Shown piece after piece: positions 17,569-34,710 of a stretch of 64,000 bases of DNA. Within the stretch, counting starts at the first letter, position 1. Each line of letters starts with the position of its first letter. The DNA comes from Purpureocillium takamizusanense. Lineage: Eukaryota > Ascomycota > Sordariomycetes > Hypocreales > Ophiocordycipitaceae. Made by a program: the position numbers and the translations under genes. The notes under the pieces are model-generated. The model saw only the letters and a list, made by a program, of their open reading frames with translations, was not told where the DNA came from and did not search any database. The stretch is from positions 2,294,001 through 2,358,000 of the forward strand of contig NC_063075.1 in NCBI RefSeq assembly GCF_022605165.1, read 5' to 3'.

Positions 17569-19133
17569 TTAAACGCTGATGGTGCGGAAGACGCTAAACT
17601 CCTCACCCGTGGCCACCAGGCTGCCCGTGATCTGGGGGTGCCAGTGCACCTCCTTGACGCCCTTGAGGTAGTGCACGAAGAGCAGCTGGGGGGGCACGTC
17701 CTTGACGCCGGCCGTGTCCTTGCTCTCCTCGTCGTCGAGCTCGACGGCCAGGTCCCACAGCGTGACGGTGTTGTCGCCGGCGGCGACGGCCATGATGGAG
17801 TCGTCGGTGGGGTGCCACTCGACGCTCGTGATCTGCTCCTTGTGGAAGGAGAAGCTCGCCAGCGCCTGGGGCTTGTCCTGGCTCGACTTCCACTGGCGCA
17901 GGTCCCAGACGGCCCAGGTGCCGTCGTCAGCGCCCGAGGCGAGCAGGTGCGTCGTCTGCCGCGACCACGACATGACGTTGACGTCGTGGTCGGAGACGTG
18001 CATCGTGATGGCCGGCTTGCGCGACTTGGAGCGCACGTCCCAGATGCGGACGGAGCCGTCGCTCGAGGCCGACGCGAACACCGACTGCTCCGACGGCGAC
18101 CACTGTATCTCCTCGACGCTGCTGGTGTGGCCCTGGAACGGTCGGTTGTCCGTCACCCAGCCGCCGCCGTCGGTGCGCGTCGTCACGTAGATGAGGCCGT
18201 CGTTGTCGCCCGTGAGCAGCTTGCCGCCGGGCACGGTCGGGGACCAGTCGACCGCGTAGCCTTCCGCCTTGTGCGCCCGGATGGTCGAGATGGGCTTGTT
18301 CTGCTGCGCCGAGATGGTCGTCCCCGGCGTGTCAAACGACGCCAGGTGAGGCGTGACGTCGTGGATGAAGACGTTTGACGACTCGGTCATGGTGGCCGTC
18401 AGGGTCGTGGGCGGTCTCCCCAGCTCACTGCTGGGGATCTGGTGCGCTCGGATGCGGTTCGTCGTCGAGCTGAGGGGGATCGACCGGCTCTCCAAGATCG
18501 GGTCGGCGTCCTCGTCGTCATCGTCCTCGTCGTCTGAGTCTTCCTCCACCTTCTCCATGCGGCTCAGGCCGCTGAACTTGTTGACCATGAGCTGGTTGTC
18601 CGACGCCTTGGCGTAGTCGGCCTGGGTGCCCGCAACCGTGTACATGGTCGCCGGGTACGCCTTGCGGTTGTCGCCGAGGGAGTCGCGGACGATGTCGAAG
18701 GAGAGGCACGGCCAGGGCGTGCTGAGGTTGTGAAGCATCTCGTAGGTAGTCAGGTCAGGCGCCAGGGTCTGGCCTGGCTCGAGCTTGCTGCGGCCGACGA
18801 TGAATGTGCCTTGGTCCACGTCCATTGCTGCTGCGAAAAGTCGTCAGTCGCCGTCCTTGTCCAATCGCGACCCAATGGCGCCGCAAGTCGTCCCCCAATC
18901 GAGCGACACGGGCCTCGGAACAAGAGCGCCTTACCTGCTTTCTCGTCGGCTTCTCTCTCAGCGTCCGGCCTGCCATCGACACCCGCCTCGAAGATTTCAT
19001 CCTCGCTCTCGAACTCGTCCTCGAACTCGTCCTCAAACTCGCCCATCTCCTTGTCATCAATGTCCATCTGCTCGGGCCGGTCGCCGCCCTTGAGGGGGGC
19101 ATCGCCCTCGGTGTCGGCGGTGCGCTTCGACAT
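17569..19133 (-). CDS. RRB1: Ribosome-assembly WD40 chaperone, Rrb1/GRWD1-like
   Basis: Two exons, complement(17569..18830, 18935..19133), 104-nt intron; 486 residues, near the yeast Rrb1 length of about 511. The N-terminus (about 1-66) is very acidic with a Met-Asp-Ile-Asp-Asp and repeated FEDEFE segments. Residues about 68-115 carry the histone-binding-like N-terminal helix found in Rrb1, Msi1 and Asf-type WD proteins (LAPDLTTYEMLHNLSTPWPC), followed by SFDIVRD, an acidic loop, and WD40 repeats from about residue 190 to the end (FQGHTSSVEEIQWSP.., ASASSDGSVRIWDVRS, LASGADDGTWAVWDLRQ, AVAAGDNTVTLWDLAVE). In yeast Rrb1 chaperones ribosomal protein uL3 for 60S assembly in the nucleus. The intron acceptor is a tandem CAGCAG, so two in-frame proteins differing by one Ala are possible. 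Confidence 0.92.
18831..18934 (-). other. Intron of the Rrb1-like gene with tandem NAGNAG acceptor
   Basis: Donor GTAAGG after AAA GCA G. The 3' end reads TTCGCAGCAG followed by CAATGG: use of the first AG gives exon 2 from 18830, use of the second gives 18827; both keep the frame. Confidence 0.85.
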
Positions 19134-22729: not shown

Positions 22730-25700
22730 TCATGTATTCGTGCCGCACTGGTTGCAAACTTGCACGGTCCGCTCTCTCCCGTGTCGTTTGGTCTCGAAGC
22801 TGTGGCCACCACAGCCTCGGCACGCTCCTCTGTCGCTGTCGTTTGATTCTGCTGCACTTAGCTCCGCCACACCCGAATCTGTGCGCTTCTTACTGCTTAA
22901 CAATTCGTCTCCCACTTCCGGAGATTCATCGATGTTCTCAGCTATCGATTCAGATTCGTTAAGCCTCGCTTTCGCCTTCAAAAGCGGGCCTGTGGATCGT
23001 CGTCTGCTCGCATCATCTGTCACTTTCAGACGGTGACCGTCATTGACGCCCAAGCTCCTCCGCGCTGACGGTTTGGCTGTTCTAGGGCTGGCACCCTCGC
23101 TCTCCGTCCTAGCGTGAGGCACGGCAGGATGCGATCCCGTTACCGTGGCAGGACTGTTGAAGGTTGTCGAATAGCGCAGACCAGAGAGCGTGGGCAGGCT
23201 AGGCTTCCAGCGCCCTAGATTCCAGAAGCTCCCGTCTCCCTTTGCATCTTGGGCTTCCGGGTCTGGCGAGCTAATCAAACTGAAGCTCGGCGTCGGCGGA
23301 ACCGCTGGCTCGTCTTCGTCCTTCCGTGACCGCAACGAAGCCATGCTTGTCTGCACATTGCTTGTGGGACTCCCTGGGTGTTGCGCACGAAGGATTGGGC
23401 TAGAGGCATACGGTTTCCTCCGGGCTTCGGATGCTAGATTTGCGGCGGACGCGTTGAGGGGGGAGCGATTCGCTTTGATTGGTGACATAGACCGCTCGCT
23501 CCTAATCGTTGCCGCGGGCGTGCTCCCCCTGCCTTCAATGTCCTGGCGCCAGCTCATAATTCGGTCACTCGCCGGCTGTACCTGTGGTGGGTTGTGTCCC
23601 AGGTTCAGAGATCCGCGTCGAGAGTTCACCCGGCTGCCAGCGCTCGTCTTGGTGATGATGCTAGAGCTGCGCCCAACGCCAGTCAGCTTGCCAGAGAACT
23701 TGGACCCCGTCTCCCAGGTGTTCTGTTGTCGCTTGACGAATGCGCAATCCTGCCGAAATACTTTGATGGTTCCGGTCCGATCGGTGGTGACGATAATGTT
23801 GCCGTCCATGTGCTTCGAACGCTCGATGTAGGCCGGTGTCTCCTCAGGCTTCTTGGAATTTTGTGGATGGTCTGAGCTGCCTGTTTCAGACAGTCGAGTC
23901 TGACTCGCCGATGTCTCTTCGAAGCTCAGAAGTTGGACCGGCGGCGGGTTGCACAGGTCGTAGATGGGATCGCCCGACGCGCTCAACAGTTGTTTGCTCT
24001 TGACGGGCGCCATTAGGGCGGTAGTCACCACCTCGGGATGTGCATCGAAACACTCGTATGGCTGCTTGTCCTTCAGCTCTGCCTCCGGATTGCTTGCCGA
24101 CCAAATGTATGCCCGCCGATCCTCGCTTCCGGATATGACATACTTGCCATCATCACTAAAGCGCGCGTGGATCTGACTCGATTGGTTCTCGAGACCGCGA
24201 AACTTGACCTCCAACATGCGTGTCTTGAGGCTGTATATCCGCACACGCGAGTCGTTGGAACTGATGAGCACTTTGACGTCACCGCCCTCGGACCCATCGG
24301 CAGCTTTGACAGTCCTGATGCCCGTGATCTTGCTTCCCTTGGCATTCTTGCCCCTCGACGACCGTACATGAATGTGAAACAGAAGCTTGAGGCCTTCCGT
24401 CTCATAAAATAAGCACAGACCGCTCAAAAGCCCGCAAATTGCTGTTTTGCCATTGGGAGAAAACGCCACGGCCGTGATGAACTCATGAGCCTGGACCGAG
24501 AAGGCAACGGCCTTGTCTGGGATGCTCCATAGTCGCAGTTGAGCGTCAAGAGAGCCTGCTAGGAAGAATCGATCGTCTGTAGGGTGAAAGGCGATTGACG
24601 TGACCAAGTCGTTGTGCTTGAAGGTGCATAGACACTCTTGGCGGCTCATGTGCCACAGCTTGACCGTTTTGTCCATCGACGAGGATAGGAGAAAGCTGTT
24701 CTTGCTCCAGCTTAGAGCCAGGACCTCTCCCGTATGGCCCACAAACTCCCGTGTCGGCTTGCTCTGGAACACAGGAGCACTCAGCTTTTCTCCGTCGCCT
24801 TTGCTCTGGGTCTCCTCTTCTTCCTCGTGGGCCTGGCGTTCCTCAGGTGTCGAAATCACCGAAAACACTCGAACCGTCTGGTCCTTACCCGCGACAGCCA
24901 AGTACCGCCCGTCCACGCTGAACTCGGCCGCCCAAATAGCGTCCCCACCCTTGAGAATCTTGTTACCCACGACCGTGGCTGGGGCTCTGGCCTGAGGCTC
25001 TCCGTCGGATGACTGCTTGCTGCCGAGCAGCTCTTGTGCTAGGAACATGTGGTTGAAATCACGGCCCTTTTTGTTGTGAGGCTTGACCCGGATATAACGT
25101 GGGGGTTCCTTGTACAAGGGGATGAAGCCAACGCCCGCTCCACGGATCGATGTCACGGCACGTGCGTTGCTACCATCGGTGCGAGGGTCGCCCATTTCCG
25201 AGTCTGAGTCTGGTAATTCATCGTCTTTTCTCCATGTCCCTCGCATTCCCAGGCGGCTCAGAAACGACGGACCCTTCCTACACAGACTTCAGGTTAGCGA
25301 CTTATACGAGCGGGGGCATCAGGCGGCAAGCGTACCTTCGCTCCTTGTTAAGATCCAACGTCCCATAGGACGACTTTGTCGGGGTATCATGTAGGCTATC
25401 CAGCGTCGGGCTCTCCGGTCTGTTGGTTGGATTACGCAAACGCTGAGCTATTGAAGGTTCGGTATTGCTAGTGGTTCGAAGATATATTTGCTGCATGCCG
25501 ACAGTACTGTCAGTCTTTGGCAGAACAACACAAGCGCATCAAGCTGACGCGTCGGTGACAGCGTTGGAGCCGAGGTTGACGAACCGTGCTCAAAGGATCC
25601 AGGCCGACATTAGCTGGCGGCGTCGTTGACAAGGCCTTTGACAGGCCTTTAGCACCATCCTTGTCCCTAACATTTTGTGACGTGTTGCTTCGGGACAGTA

Positions 25701-29319: not shown

Positions 29320-30613
29320 ATGAAGCTCCTCGCCCGGCGGATCCTGCCGGACATGGAGGAGGAGCAGCTCTCACTACTCCCAGAGGACCCTGAGGATATG
29401 GTAAGCCCGCCCTGTCGTTAGCTTCAGTTATGTTCATTGCGGCTCGCTGACAACTCACTAGTGGCATGCATACAACCTCATCGTCGTTGGCGACATCGTC
29501 AGCGCGCACGCCGTTCGCAAGATCGCCATCCCGAATGGCGGCACCGGGTCCTCGGCCTCGGAGCGCGTCCACACCGACCTGACTCTGCGAGTAAAGTCGA
29601 CCTTTTTCGACCCGGCCGTATCATCACTCCGCGTCTCTGGCGTCGTCGTCAGCGAGAACGAATACGTGCCTCGCGGCTCCCATCACACACTCGACCTCGA
29701 GGTCAGCCGCTCGTTTTCCATTGTCAAGCCCAATGGCTGGGATTCGGTCGCGAAAACAACGCTATCCCAGGCGCTCTCTGATGACAGAAACGGTGCCATG
29801 GCCGCTGTCGTCATGCAGGAGGGCTTGGCCAACATCTGCCTCATCACGCAGTTCCGCACCGTATTGAAGACCAAGGTCGAGAGCGTGGTCCCGAAGAAGC
29901 GTGACAAGGTTTCGGATCAGGACGCCGGCATGAAGCGCTTCTTCGATAAGACGCTCAACTCGCTCGTCCGTGCCCTCGACTTCTCCGACACCCGCCCGCT
30001 GCTCCTCGCTAGCCCTGGATTCACCGCCAGCGACTTCAAGGACTACATGACGAAACAAGGCCGCGACAAGTCAGACAAGGTGCTCAGCGCAATCGCCAAG
30101 AATGCGACGGTAATTCACACCAACTCAGGGCATCTGCACAGCCTCAACGAAGTTCTCAAGAGCCCCGAGGTCCTTGCCAAGATGCGAGACATGGTGTATG
30201 CCAAGGAGACGCAGTACATGGATCAGTTCTTTGACATGCTCAAGCTCGATGATGGACGGGCGTGGTACGGCGCAAGGGCGGTCGAGAAGGCCGTAGCCGA
30301 CGGCGCCGTCGGGCCCGGCGGCGGTGTGCTCCTCGTCAACAACTCCCTGTTTCGAAGTGACGACTTGGAGACGCGGAAGAAGTACGTCGGACTGGTGGAC
30401 AAGGTGCAGTTGGACGGAGGTGAGGCGCGGATACTGAGCAGCGATCATGAAAGCGGCCAGAGGTTAAAGCTCATGGGCGACATTGCGGCGACTCTAAATT
30501 ACCCCATGCTTGATCTCGACGACGATGAAGAAGAGGAGGAGGAGGTTCAGGTGGTGCGGGATAACGGAAACAGACATGAGGAGGACGACGACATGCTAGA
30601 CAGCGTGATTTAA
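29320..30613 (+). CDS. DOM34: Translation surveillance factor Dom34/Pelota
   Basis: Two exons, 29320..29400 and 29462..30613, with a 61-nt phase-0 intron (GTAAGC..CACTAG); 410 residues. The first exon (MKLLARRILPDMEEEQLSLL) joins WHAYNLIVVGDIVSAHAVRK to form the eRF1-like N-terminal SRL domain of Pelota, with the typical low-specificity RNA-binding fold including DLTLRVKSTFFDPAVSSLRVSG. A central domain contains the ALDFSDTRPLLLASPGFT and KNATVIHTNSGHLHSL segments, and a C-terminal L30e-like domain precedes an acidic tail (Asp/Glu-rich, residues about 380-400) characteristic of the family. With the GTPase Hbs1 it splits stalled ribosomes in no-go and non-stop mRNA decay in the cytosol. The first-exon ATG was chosen because it opens the conserved N-terminus. 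Confidence 0.93.
29401..29461 (+). other. Intron of the Dom34 gene
   Basis: Phase-0 intron with donor GTAAGC immediately after an ATG codon and acceptor CACTAG before TGG CAT GCA. The joined product reads PEDMWHAYNLI, which matches the family. Confidence 0.92.
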
Positions 30614-30763: not shown

Positions 30764-31003
30764 CTACAATTTCAAGACCTTCCGCCTCTGCCTAATGTTA
30801 CACATCTCACAGCGATCTATATCCGTAATCACATCATCGTATCCTAGGCCCAATGGGCATCCAGGCGGCCGGTATTTTGGATCGGCGCGCGCCTTTGTCT
30901 GCTGCTCCCGGACCTCTTTACAAGGTCTCTCTTGCATTTGCGCCATGAAGCGGGTACGGTCGCAGTTTCTGCAATGGTAAAAGTAACGACGTGCGGTACA
31001 CAT
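30764..31003 (-). CDS. Small cysteine-pattern protein, tandem family member 1
   Basis: Single-exon gene for 79 residues. Cysteines sit at 2, 11, 14, 28, 49, 65 and 68, with pairs CRNC and CEMC and the middle Cys in GCPLG. This is the same layout as the genes at 31610 and 32621: MCT, C-x2-C at 11/14, a lone Cys at 28, CPxG, then C-x2-C. Paired CxxC motifs are what one expects from a small zinc-binding protein, but no known function is assigned. It is basic, with no signal peptide or membrane segment, so it is probably intracellular. A TATA-like site (GTATAAAAGAG) is about 190 bp upstream. The stop is just 150 bp from the Dom34 stop on the other strand. The chance-ORF risk is offset by the shared pattern with its two neighbours. 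Confidence 0.72.
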   Translation of the reverse strand: MCTARRYFYHCRNCDRTRFMAQMQERPCKEVREQQTKARADPKYRPPGCPLGLGYDDVITDIDRCEMCNIRQRRKVLKL

Positions 31004-31609
31004 TGATCGGCTGTGATACCTTTTTTTTTTTCTTTGTTCGGCTTTTTGGTTTGCTCTTCAATGTGAGTCTGGGTCAATGCAGAGAGGAGGAAGAGAGACG
31101 ACGCGACGCTTTGGAGTCAATGTTGAAAGGAGGCAGGCCTTGCTGTGGAGGCAGGATTAAAAACATTATGTTTGGCAGGAGAAAGGAATTCTCTTTTATA
31201 CAAAAGTAGGTGCTTCTGAGTGAAGCAGTTTCCTTGATGGACAGGTAGCGAGATTCGGAACGCGTTCGGTCATGGCCCGTCTGGCGTGAACGAACCGACC
31301 TATGTGTTGAGTCGTTCAGGCCGAGTGCGTCCAGCGTGTTATTGATGTTATCGGTACCGTATGCACCACCAAATATAGGCAAGAGAGTTCGCTGCCGTGT
31401 CCACTAGCTGCTGCTGTTATGTACTACGCACAGCTCTATCAGCCGAGTCCATCCCAGACTTCTTCATACATCAACCCCATACCGCTGCGTCTTCAACACG
31501 AACACCATCGCTCCACCTTCTCGGACGGCCAACCAACATACACACAGCTCAGGAAACAACCAGAATACTCTCAGACAGCAAAAGGCTCAGCTTCTGCAGC
31601 GAGGGCTCA
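31004..31609. other. Spacer between tandem family members 1 and 2
   Basis: Contains the TATA-like element of member 1 at 31191-31201 and a T run at 31020-31031. A 102-residue minus-strand frame (31074-31382) lacks the family pattern and is not called. Confidence 0.5.
31191..31201 (-). promoter_or_regulatory. TATA-like element of small Cys protein 1
   Basis: GTATAAAAGAG on the minus strand, about 190 bp upstream of the ATG at 31003. Function inferred from match and position. Confidence 0.45.
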
Positions 31610-31861
31610 CTACAGGCGGTCCCCCGCACGTCTGTTATCGCAGCGAGCGCAGGTGGGCATCCAAAACACAGTCTCGTTTTCGAATGTCTGGCCGTTGGGG
31701 CACGTAACTTCGACGGGCCCCGAGCCGCTGGCCAGTTCCTCCGCATGGGCTACGACCTGTGCCTCGAGGTACGCGGCGCAGCGCCGAGGGGGCCATTGCC
31801 CGCAAAAGAACATGGATTTGCAGTGCGTGCACTCCTTGAACTTGAGAACTACGGTGCACAT
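31610..31861 (-). CDS. Small cysteine-pattern protein, tandem family member 2
   Basis: Single-exon gene for 83 residues starting MCTVVLKFKECTHCKSMFFC. Cysteines at 2, 11, 14, 28, 54, 71 and 74 follow the same layout as its neighbours, with an extra Cys at 20. The middle element is CPNG and the closing pair is CARC. An ATG nine bases upstream (31870) would add Met-Ile-Asn; the MCT start is preferred because all three paralogues begin with it. No signal peptide or membrane helix is visible. The gene has a TATA-like box about 165 bp upstream. The protein is diverged from its neighbours except at Cys, Pro and Gly, so duplication is old or selection acts only on the metal-site residues. Function is unknown; a zinc-binding role is inferred. 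Confidence 0.75.
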   Translation of the reverse strand: MCTVVLKFKECTHCKSMFFCGQWPPRRCAAYLEAQVVAHAEELASGSGPVEVTCPNGQTFENETVFWMPTCARCDNRRAGDRL

Positions 31862-32620
31862 GTTGATCAAGTCAGGGGCTTGGAAAAGCTGTTTCTTCGG
31901 AGGTTAAGTATTCGGCCCACGCTCTCAAGTTCAAACTTGGCGGTCGGTATAAGCGGCAGTTGTTTGGCATAAACTTGGAGCTCAAAGGCAGGCAGTAGTA
32001 ACCACTGGTGAGTGAGACCCCTTTTTATAGTTTTTGCTTTGGGGGCAAGCTCATTCTTGTTCTCTTTGATGGCTCGCGGCTGGATTCACACAAAGTTCCA
32101 GTTGTTTTGATCACAATGGCCGTATGCAACGCGATAAGCGGGATCGTGTAAGTGGAGGAGCGCGGGCTGTGGTCGGGTGTCATGCCCGTCCAGTACAGAG
32201 ACAAGATCAATTTGGACAATTCGACTGTACCGATCGAAGGCGTGGGCGTTCCAATGCTTAGTGGCTCCTGTCTGCACCAGCAAATTGCCAATTCCTGTTG
32301 ATATGGTTAGTGTTGTCCTTCGACCTCGAAGCCTCGCGCTGCGCGTAGATCATCATGAGGGCTATCTCACAATATATGTGTCTGATTTGATAGCTCACGG
32401 TGCTTCTATATGCCCAAATCATTGCGCAAGTTCCTGTTTGAGCGTCGTCGCATTGAAGGCTTGGAGCGCAACCACACCAAATTAGGGAGTACGGAGACAG
32501 ACAGATGATAGGTTTCTCGCAGCACCAGACAAGACAACAGGTCTCCAAGATACACAACGGATGTTTGGTGAATACCATGTACGCAACCGCAATCGCCAAT
32601 CTCAAATAGCTAGGTCTGCG
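31862..32620. other. Spacer between tandem family members 2 and 3
   Basis: Contains the TATA-like element of member 2 at 32021-32030. No further family copy or other gene is recognised. Confidence 0.5.
32021..32030 (-). promoter_or_regulatory. TATA-like element of small Cys protein 2
   Basis: CTATAAAAAG on the minus strand, about 165 bp upstream of the ATG at 31861. It is followed by GGGGTCTCA, and a GTCTCA also follows the equivalent box of member 3. Confidence 0.5.
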
Positions 32621-32872
32621 CTAGGTCTGCGACTTTCCCTCGTCACCCGTCTTCTCCCTACGATTCTCAACGCAGGCCTCGCAAGCATCCACATGTTGGA
32701 TGTCGGACTTTACGTGTCTGAGACCAGTCGGACATGCCACTCTCATGCCTCGTGCCGGCAGTGTGGCCACTGCGTTGAGAAAGTCGTCGCATCGGAACGG
32801 GGCGCTGCGCGACACGGGGCGTCTGCTCCGGCATGTCCGGCACCTCTCGTGGCCGTGGACGATGGTACACAT
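32621..32872 (-). CDS. Small cysteine-pattern protein, tandem family member 3
   Basis: Single-exon gene for 83 residues, starting MCTIVHGHERCRTCRSR. Cysteines at 2, 11, 14, 28, 47, 64 and 67 fit the array pattern, with CPTG in the middle and CEAC at the end. The frame is open 30 codons farther upstream to an ATG at 32962, but the MCT start is chosen by comparison with the two paralogues and by a TATA-like element about 160 bp before it. The protein is basic and soluble-looking, with no secretion signal. It lies next to an aldo-keto reductase on the other strand, with 772 bp between the two start codons. Function is unknown. Confidence 0.73.
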   Translation of the reverse strand: MCTIVHGHERCRTCRSRRPVSRSAPFRCDDFLNAVATLPARGMRVACPTGLRHVKSDIQHVDACEACVENRREKTGDEGKSQT

Positions 32873-33644
32873 TGCTTCTCGGGCCTTGTCGTTAGACAGC
32901 TTGCGGTGCGAGCGGTCTCTCGTCAAGTGTCTGGGTCTGGGCGATTTCAGTCTCGAGAACATGAAGCGTCTGCAGAGGGAAGGAAGGTCAAGGGAGCAGT
33001 CAGGGTTCTTCTAGAGCTGAGACACGCCCTTATAGTCCAAGGAACAACTGATTGAATCACAACTCATGATTCGAGCAACCAATCCGTCCCACCGGAGCGT
33101 TCGAGAAGGAGCAGCACGGGTAGACGGAAGCCGTTGCCGGAAACCCATGTGCGATCTGGGTTCCTTCAGTCCGAAGCAGCGAGCAGCATCGTCGACTATT
33201 CACAGTCCGTCGACGCAATGCGCATGCCTACTACGTGCAACCGTCGTCGTGTAATTCCATGCACCCGCCTTCGCTCACACAATGGCGTTTCAACAAGATC
33301 CTGTTCCCACACTCGTTACACAAACAAAGAAACCAACAATTGGTCGTCGTGCTTGACCAGGTTAGGCGGCCCTTAGAGCCGACCAACTCCGGGCCACACC
33401 GCTAACTCCACGAGGCGTAAATCCGGGGCTTCCATCGCTCGAGTGACCCCGCCGTTTGTTTGGCTTTCGCGACTAAAGCACAGCAGTAGCACTTCAATGA
33501 CGGAACTCGTCGCGCGCGTTGCATCACAGTCGCCACGCCGTATACCCCCAGCATAAGTCGCCATAAATTCGTCCGTCCTCGGTCTTGAATTCGTCTGGAC
33601 CTGTCACCCACATACTCAACAGCATCTTCATGCTCGCACGAAGA
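32873..33644. other. Divergent intergenic region between small Cys protein 3 and the aldo-keto reductase
   Basis: Holds the TATA-like box of small Cys protein 3 at 33027-33036 and the promoter of the aldo-keto reductase. No other feature seen. Confidence 0.5.
33027..33036 (-). promoter_or_regulatory. TATA-like element of small Cys protein 3
   Basis: CTATAAGGG on the minus strand, about 160 bp upstream of the ATG at 32872, followed by CGTGTCTCA, resembling the layout upstream of member 2. Confidence 0.45.
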
Positions 33645-34710
33645 ATGGCGTCCAAGCTCAGTCTAAGCTCTACGGTGAAGCTCAACTCCGGGTATGAGCT
33701 CCCCTTGCTGGGGTTTGGTGTAAGCCGTCATCCGAAATCGCGGGAGAGGCGCCGCTAATGGCTGTGCCGCAGGTATACCAAACGTGAGTCGTCAGCCTTT
33801 TGAGAGACGGCGTGTCACCCGCCCGCAGCTGACCATATCTGACAGACCCAAGGAGCAGGCAACTGAAGTGTGCAAGGAGGCCTTGAAGATTGGCTACCGT
33901 CACGTCTGTCCTCACCACCAGCCTTGGAAAATATGTAGAGAATTAACTTCTGACCGGCGCGCGCTTTAGATCGACTCGGCGTCAGCCTATCGCAACCAGG
34001 GGCCCTCAGCCGCCTCCATCCCGGCCTTGGGCATCGCGCGCTCCGACATCTTCTTCACCACAAAGGTGCCGGTGCGCCAGTACCCGCTCGGGTACGACAA
34101 CACGCACAAGCTCGTCGACATTGCGCTCTCCGAGACGGGGCTCGACTACCTCGACCTGGTGCTCATCCACTCGCCGTACGGCGGGCCCGAGAACCGCAAG
34201 GGCGCGTGGCGCGCGCTCGTCGAGGCCGTCGAGGCCGGCAAGGTGCGCTCCATCGGCGTGTCCAACTACGGCGTGCACCACCTCGACGAGCTCGAGGCCT
34301 ACATCGGCGAGCTCGAGGCCCAGCGCGGGGGCAAGGGCAAGGGCGGCGTCATCTCCGTCGGGCAGTGGGAGGTGCACCCGTGGCTCGCCCGCCCGGACAT
34401 CGTGCAGTGGTGCCGGGCCCGCAACGTCGCCGTCGAGGCCTACTGCCCCATCGTGCGCGGCGAGCGCCTCGGCGAGCCCAAGGTCGTCGCCCTGGCCCAA
34501 AAGTACGGCAAGACGCCGGCGCAGGTGCTGCTGCGCTGGAGCCTGCAGAGGGGGCTCGTGCCGCTCGTCAAGAGCGTGACGCCGTCGCGCATCGCCGAGA
34601 ACGCGGGCCTGTTCGACTTTGAGTTGACTGACGCTGAGGTCGAGGACCTGGCGACCAAGGACTACAGCCCGTGTGCGTGGGATCCCACCGTGGAGCCGCT
34701 GGAGAAGTGA
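33645..34710 (+). CDS. Aldo-keto reductase with an 11-nt microexon
   Basis: Four exons, 33645..33719, 33773..33783, 33846..33903, 33970..34710; 294 residues. Exon 2 is only 11 nt (GTA TAC CAA AC) and restores the conserved VYQT after LPLLGFG. The assembled sequence shows the whole catalytic tetrad: Asp and Tyr in HIDSASAYRNQ, Lys in FFTTKVPV, His in VLIHSPYGG. Also present are GAWRALVEAVEAGKVRSIGVSNYGVHHL, the family helix and strand, and the NADPH-binding C-terminal KSVTPSRIAENAGLFDFELT. Such enzymes reduce aldehydes and ketones with NADPH in the cytosol. The donor of exon 3 (GTCTGT) is non-ideal. An in-frame ATG at 33630 would add five residues. At 294 residues it is slightly short, missing part of the usual helix after the Tyr. 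The physiological substrate is unknown. Confidence 0.84.
33720..33772 (+). other. Intron 1 of the aldo-keto reductase
   Basis: Phase-0 intron, donor GTAAGC after TTT GGT and acceptor GCCGCAG before GTA TAC. Confidence 0.82.
33784..33845 (+). other. Intron 2 of the aldo-keto reductase
   Basis: Phase-2 intron following the 11-nt microexon, donor GTGAGT and acceptor CTGACAG before A CCC AAG. Joining gives VYQTPKEQATEVC. Confidence 0.82.
33904..33969 (+). other. Intron 3 of the aldo-keto reductase
   Basis: Phase-0 intron, donor GTCTGT after CGT CAC and acceptor GCTTTAG before ATC GAC. Joining gives the catalytic segment GYRHIDSASAY. Confidence 0.8.

Follow-up and report, generated by a model that had tools for sequence, protein, structure and literature searches.

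Three short genes on the minus strand

What are the three short open reading frames that follow one another on the minus strand of this part of the Purpureocillium takamizusanense genome, and do they belong together? We analysed them within a stretch of 64,000 nucleotides, the window (C8:2294001-2358000). C8a (P0001; 30764..31003) encodes 79 residues with seven Cys and a basic tail, C8b (P0002; 31610..31861) encodes 83 residues with the same seven Cys and an additional, non-conserved one (C20), and C8c (P0003; 32621..32872) encodes 83 residues with seven Cys. All three lie on the minus strand, and the coordinates include the stop codons. Lengths and Cys positions given in a first-pass annotation of this DNA agree with the ORF translations: Cys 2, 11, 14 and 28 are common to the trio, followed by Cys 49, 54 or 47 and by the pairs 65 and 68, 71 and 74, or 64 and 67, respectively. 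Invariant among the three proteins are M1, C2, T3, C11, C14 and C28, one Ala, C-P-x-G and C-x2-C. The search pattern proposed in that annotation, with a last gap of x(14,16), matches none of them; the gap after CPxG is 12-13 residues, and x(12,13) matches all three.

That the likeness is not a product of chance had also been claimed, and simulations support this. A six-frame translation of the window contains the correctly spaced Cys motif three times, versus not once in 100 order-3 Markov windows. Looser parts of the motif are less rare by chance. For MC-x5,14-C-x2-C, three matches compare with 0.56 expected per window by chance, and for the Cys series without the Met-Cys start, three compare with 0.19.

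In 19 of the 20 intact family members described below, the ATG of Met-Cys is the first in-frame ATG after the upstream stop. The exception is C8c, whose frame is open upstream and contains one in-frame ATG at 32962, 30 codons 5' of MCT, so that its start is the least certain of the three. Since the stretch 5' of C8c out-scores the gene itself in codon use (0.090 vs 0.005), a longer form of this protein may exist. The motif GATCA is found on the minus strand directly 5' of the C8a start codon (31004-31008) and two bases 5' of that of C8b (31864-31868); both occurrences may be chance.

The array sits between a Dom34/Pelota homologue and an aldo/keto reductase gene, with no functional link apparent. 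The C-terminal part of the former (29666-30613, plus strand) was recognised by its eRF1 domains in Pfam, with dom34 as best PDB match. Of the latter, one exon (34027-34710, plus strand) was identified with Pfam, and by eye more exons may start at about 33646, upstream. WD40-repeat frames are located on the minus strand at 17572-18825 and 22733-25246. The window contains no tRNA according to ARAGORN and gave no Rfam hit at the gathering threshold. Two open frames on the plus strand (31419-31904 and 32561-33052) are longer than the second and third gene and run antisense over them.

A multigene family with a conserved cysteine layout

We searched the window's own genome (35.57 Mb, 14 contigs) with 12 family proteins, namely the window trio plus nine further members; the last query gave no additional locus. 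Pattern and profile scans of the retrieved stretches supplemented the protein queries. This revealed at least 26 family loci, spread over 7 contigs; of these, 20 are intact and 6 damaged or variant. All of these figures are minimum values, since only the best candidates are scored in the search and the profile covered the retrieved stretches of the genome. Single-sequence matches linked all three window proteins to loci elsewhere: C8a to C2:615499 (E 0.0025) and C4:2730773 (E 0.010), C8b to C2:615511 (E 2.6e-4), C5:599384 (E 8.6e-4) and C5:602198 (E 0.0025), and C8c to C5:602940 (E 2.5e-5).

The loci form arrays on C5, C12 and C8, pairs on C4 and C2, and singles elsewhere. The array on C5 (596832-603182) comprises nine loci on one strand, of which six are intact, one is truncated (C5b) and two are relics; start-to-start spacing is 0.55-0.81 kb, with one exception of 1.25 kb. 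Six loci lie on C12 (917907 to 926749), five intact and one without C14 (C12d). By eye, frames near the C5 array (L016 9102-9671, minus strand) and near the C12 array (L045 4225-5064, plus strand) look like Zn2Cys6 transcription-factor genes. The window trio makes up the three loci of C8. C2 carries three loci (615499, which is the damaged C2a, as well as 3996957 and 3997560), C4 two, both intact, C10 one and C1 two (2361602, intact, and 5493363, a relic).

The set of 20 intact members excludes C5b, C2a, C12d and three relics. C2a (C2:615499-615738; L018 9499-9738) has kept its seven Cys but carries ACG in place of the ATG start, and its best matches are C8b and C8a of the window. The ORF of C12d is complete but has no C14, and that of C5b stops short of the final C-x2-C. 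The relics are, weakest first, C5:601387 (E 0.005 among 3273 frames), C5:598051 (3e-4) and C1:5493363 (6e-9). Two further candidates, C9:2032175 and C1:5220905, were rejected, as the Cys layout was absent by eye.

Membership of the trio was also evident from profiles. Among the 1283 stop-to-stop frames of at least 30 residues in the window, a profile of 17 members from outside the window ranked the trio first (C8c E 5.3e-14, C8a 5.2e-11, C8b 3e-9); the fourth-ranked frame had an E-value of 0.16 and the best reversed frame 0.11. With profiles from which the respective contig had been left out, each of the 17 other intact members scored E 1.1e-5 or better (database size 1000). We conclude from these comparisons that the trio is one small array of an unnamed multigene protein family.

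The 20 intact members share the layout Met-Cys-x8-Cys-x2-Cys-x12,14-Cys-x15,25-Cys-x14,18-Cys-x2-Cys, with x4 replacing x2 after Cys11 in C4a, C4b, C10a and C1a. The Met1-Cys2 start and the x8 gap to Cys11 are invariant; beyond the last Cys, tail length is free (3-26 residues). The first-pass annotation had described shared Cys positions and strong divergence outside Cys, Pro and Gly. Kept Cys and divergence elsewhere hold for the whole family: Met1 and the seven Cys are identical across the 20 intact members, although the Cys layout itself enters into what we call intact (the full set is present in 20 of the 22 Met-Cys ORFs, the exceptions being C12d and C5b), and mean pairwise identity is 23% overall and 14% without the shared Cys and Met. 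Even the closest intact pair is only 44.2% identical. A separate alignment (A3) comprised 19 of the 20 intact members, all but the later-found C12e. Several members were first spotted via the Met-Cys pattern; a profile scan of 3273 frames, which is independent of Met-Cys, revealed no intact member lacking it. The MCT start, by contrast, is a feature of the window trio and not of the family, as T follows in 5 of the 20 intact members.

After these positions, conservation is highest for a Pro located three alignment columns ahead of the fourth Cys (15 of 20) and for a Gly located three columns behind the fifth (14 of 20); there is no conserved His. In the alignment behind these counts, columns 8, 21, 22, 34 and 62 are 80-95% hydrophobic, which points to a fold, as in a folded core, rather than to a metal buffer.

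Searches against known families

The earlier statement that the family is not a recognised one stood up to our searches. Across 19 of the 20 intact members (all but C12e), every listed Pfam match was below the family cut-off; NCBIfam, searched with the three window proteins, gave nothing above cut-off, and no credible chain match was obtained in the PDB. Pfam and NCBIfam hits of single members, among them those to the SPT23/MGA2 DNA-binding family (0.0075), zf-HC3 (0.012), HypA (0.085) and Sprouty (0.14) were rejected, and so was MYND for P0002 (Pfam E 0.34, 11.5 bits versus a cut-off of 22.7). We attribute these matches to chance because no Pfam family was found on more than two of the 19 members and all were below cut-off. 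One PDB profile match, to the monooxygenase SorC (E 0.24, profile positions 7-42), was likewise rejected.

In a collection of 5.8 billion proteins, three queries yielded nothing at E 10 or better among 3, 1 and 351 candidates, a result with little bearing on species range. A scan of prokaryote genomes with one member gave pattern matches in 53 stretches and no relative. None of the titles and abstract openings listed in literature searches describes such a family. Short ascomycete hypothetical proteins with a Met-Cys start and C-x2-C pairs presumably exist, and may represent the wider family.

Coding evidence and selection

Are the frames genes at all? They might be relics, or frames open by chance that could be the antisense of the plus-strand ORFs 31419-31904 and 32561-33052. 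Codon bias is weak, and 6 of the 26 family loci are damaged or variant. The codon scores of the trio are below those of the five ORFs used for training, whose own scores come from the same training set; for each window gene, its own frame has the top codon score of the six. The two plus-strand ORFs score -0.067 and -0.139 versus -0.022 and 0.005 for the underlying minus-strand frames, and neither has a Pfam match at E 0.01. In addition, when the 20 intact members are aligned, both TGC and TGT are present at every one of the seven Cys, hence it is the amino acid that has been kept rather than the DNA. A purine at -3 precedes the start in 18 of 20 members versus 55% of the 2069 ATGs in the window (binomial 8e-4). 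Together with the profile E-values, the kept Cys and the start context make relics or chance frames a very improbable explanation.

Selection was analysed by counting in ten pairs and with a codon model in four of them (outside Cys and on all codons, eight fits; the all-codon fit of C12c/C12f hit a boundary and was left out). Outside Cys, omega of the four close pairs was 0.40 (the C4 pair), 1.03, 0.74 and 0.16. For the pairs with 0.40 and 0.16 it was below 1 (2dlnL 4.3 and 14.2), whereas 1.03 and 0.74 were not distinguishable from 1; the latter two pairs are what chance frames or relics could also give. Counting revealed pS clearly above pN in two of the ten pairs.

Positive selection was considered for two pairs and rejected as not clear. 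In the C4 pair, pN was 0.34 versus a pS of 0.29 (0.38 versus 0.30 outside Cys), and in C8b/C8c, outside Cys only, 0.62 versus 0.56; among 500 resamplings, those with pS no higher than pN made up 86.8% and 71.2%, respectively. The C4 count is biased by the high GC3 of both genes (0.88 and 0.93), and the codon model outside Cys gave the omega of 0.40 for this pair.

Probable birth and death of family members

The first-pass annotation had spoken of three tandem genes. That they are related stands, and the statement can be extended, since they are one array among at least 26 loci. However, they do not form one clade in our tree, which is weakly supported (one of 17 inner branches well supported, many long branches). 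Bootstrap support for the trio as a group was 0% (200 trees), and the window label was no more clustered than shuffled labels (500 of 500 as low). C8b was placed with C2b and C8a on the C4/C12 side, and C8c shared a fork with members from C5 and elsewhere. Five C12 members came together in 67% of the bootstrap trees and the two C4 members in 80%; members from C5 and from C2 formed no clades either. A single local tandem expansion as the origin of the trio is therefore unsupported by this weak tree, and its members need not be tandem copies of one another. The damaged copies (C5b, C2a, C12d and the three relics) show loss beside gain. Tree and damaged copies point to a long-standing birth-and-death process within the arrays and not to a recent burst.

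Proposed nature of the proteins

What might such proteins do? We consider it fairly probable that the trio and its family are intracellular binding modules that are folded by a metal, probably zinc, and evolve by birth and death. The seven Cys would hold a small metal-site fold, for which the Cys spacing suggests zinc. Cys2, Cys11, Cys14 and Cys28 may form a first lobe, and the last three Cys with one other ligand a second. Made and kept inside the cell, the protein would serve as a scaffold from which variable loops and a tail that is basic in most members may contact a partner, either protein or nucleic acid. The family may then diversify by duplication and loss and by drift at almost all positions outside the scaffold. 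Seven is an odd number of Cys for zinc sites, which counts against this explanation, as does the lack of a conserved His.

In a narrower form of it, the partner would be nucleic acid and the module might, for example, help in transcription or silencing; the basic tail would then be a nuclear signal or take part in binding. The pI exceeds 8 in 16 of the 20 intact members, the tail is net positive in 16 of 20, and the tails of C4a, C4b, C12a, C12b, C12c and C12f are rich in K and R. But tail charge is zero or negative in four members (C8c, C5c, C5g and C12e), and none of the DNA-binding patterns tested fits, so we regard this narrower reading as possible and rather doubtful.

Alternatively, the Cys might bind an iron-sulfur cluster, or the protein might act in redox reactions or as a metal buffer in place of a zinc scaffold. 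Seven Cys with two paired positions suit several metals, and nothing in our data discriminates among them. However, Cys accounts for 7.6-11.5% of residues and two C-x-C motifs occur in none of the 23 family sequences analysed, unlike in metallothioneins with their repeated C-x-C, and the kept hydrophobic columns speak for a fold and against a buffer. We judge this alternative unlikely as a whole; as the metal site, iron-sulfur is less likely than zinc.

A further possibility is that the Cys form disulfides and that the proteins leave the cell without a signal peptide and act outside it as antagonists or in the manner of effectors. Small size, a Cys pattern, clustering and divergence are seen in many secreted fungal proteins, and the family resembles the small cysteine-rich ones among them in size, clustering and divergence outside Cys. 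It differs from them in its Met-Cys start and in the lack of a signal-like N-terminus by hydropathy. In the 23 sequences, the mean hydropathy of the first 25 residues lies between -1.62 and 0.23, and that of any 15-residue stretch is at most 1.03; both values are plain hydropathy and not the output of a signal-peptide predictor. Read in the same way, they accord with the absence of a signal peptide noted in the first-pass annotation. The odd Cys number also speaks against disulfides, as do the C-x2-C pairs, which are typical of metal sites. Export in a disulfide-bonded form thus appears improbable, and intracellular metal-held modules remain our preferred reading.

For the metal site itself, one variant would account for the odd number. 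The start Met is usually removed before Cys. If this happened here, Cys2 would become N-terminal, and its free amine and its thiol might both bind metal. The amine would then be the eighth ligand, giving two four-ligand zinc sites from seven Cys. It would also explain why no residue separates Met from Cys2 in the intact members, and why Cys2-x8-Cys11 is fixed beside a free tail of 3-26 residues. We offer this variant as a long shot. Whether or not it holds, the fixed Met-Cys start raises a testable question on N-terminal cysteine chemistry.

The family adds a sizeable group, nameless in the libraries searched, with at least 26 loci in one genome of 35.6 Mb, and it enlarges the set of short fungal ORFs usually annotated as hypothetical. 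Since only Met and seven Cys are fixed in its intact members, it may provide a natural test of the minimal sequence that a metal-held fold requires.

Comparison with known cysteine proteins

How does the layout compare with known cysteine proteins? The fungal Zn2Cys6 domain is likewise small, Cys-patterned and mostly basic, but its spacing (C-x2-C-x6-C-x5,16-C-x2-C-x6,9-C) fits none of the 23 family sequences. The same is true for the RING, MYND, LIM, GATA and C2H2 spacings (0 of 23 each). The CCCH finger pattern (C-x4,15-C-x4,6-C-x3-H) is not a family trait, as it matched one of the 23 sequences (C5a alone). Of the motifs of twin-cysteine mitochondrial proteins, twin CX9C was found in none of them and twin CX3C in one (C2b alone).

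Zinc ribbons and treble clefs, a class of small zinc domains, also bear comparison. The family differs from these by the Cys right after Met, by two more single Cys and by C-x4-C in four members; its Pfam matches stay below cut-off, and the PDB offered no credible one. In common with zinc ribbons and treble clefs it has hydrophobic positions after the first Cys pair and, in 16 of the 20 intact members, two C-x2-C pairs that lie 46-56 residues apart.
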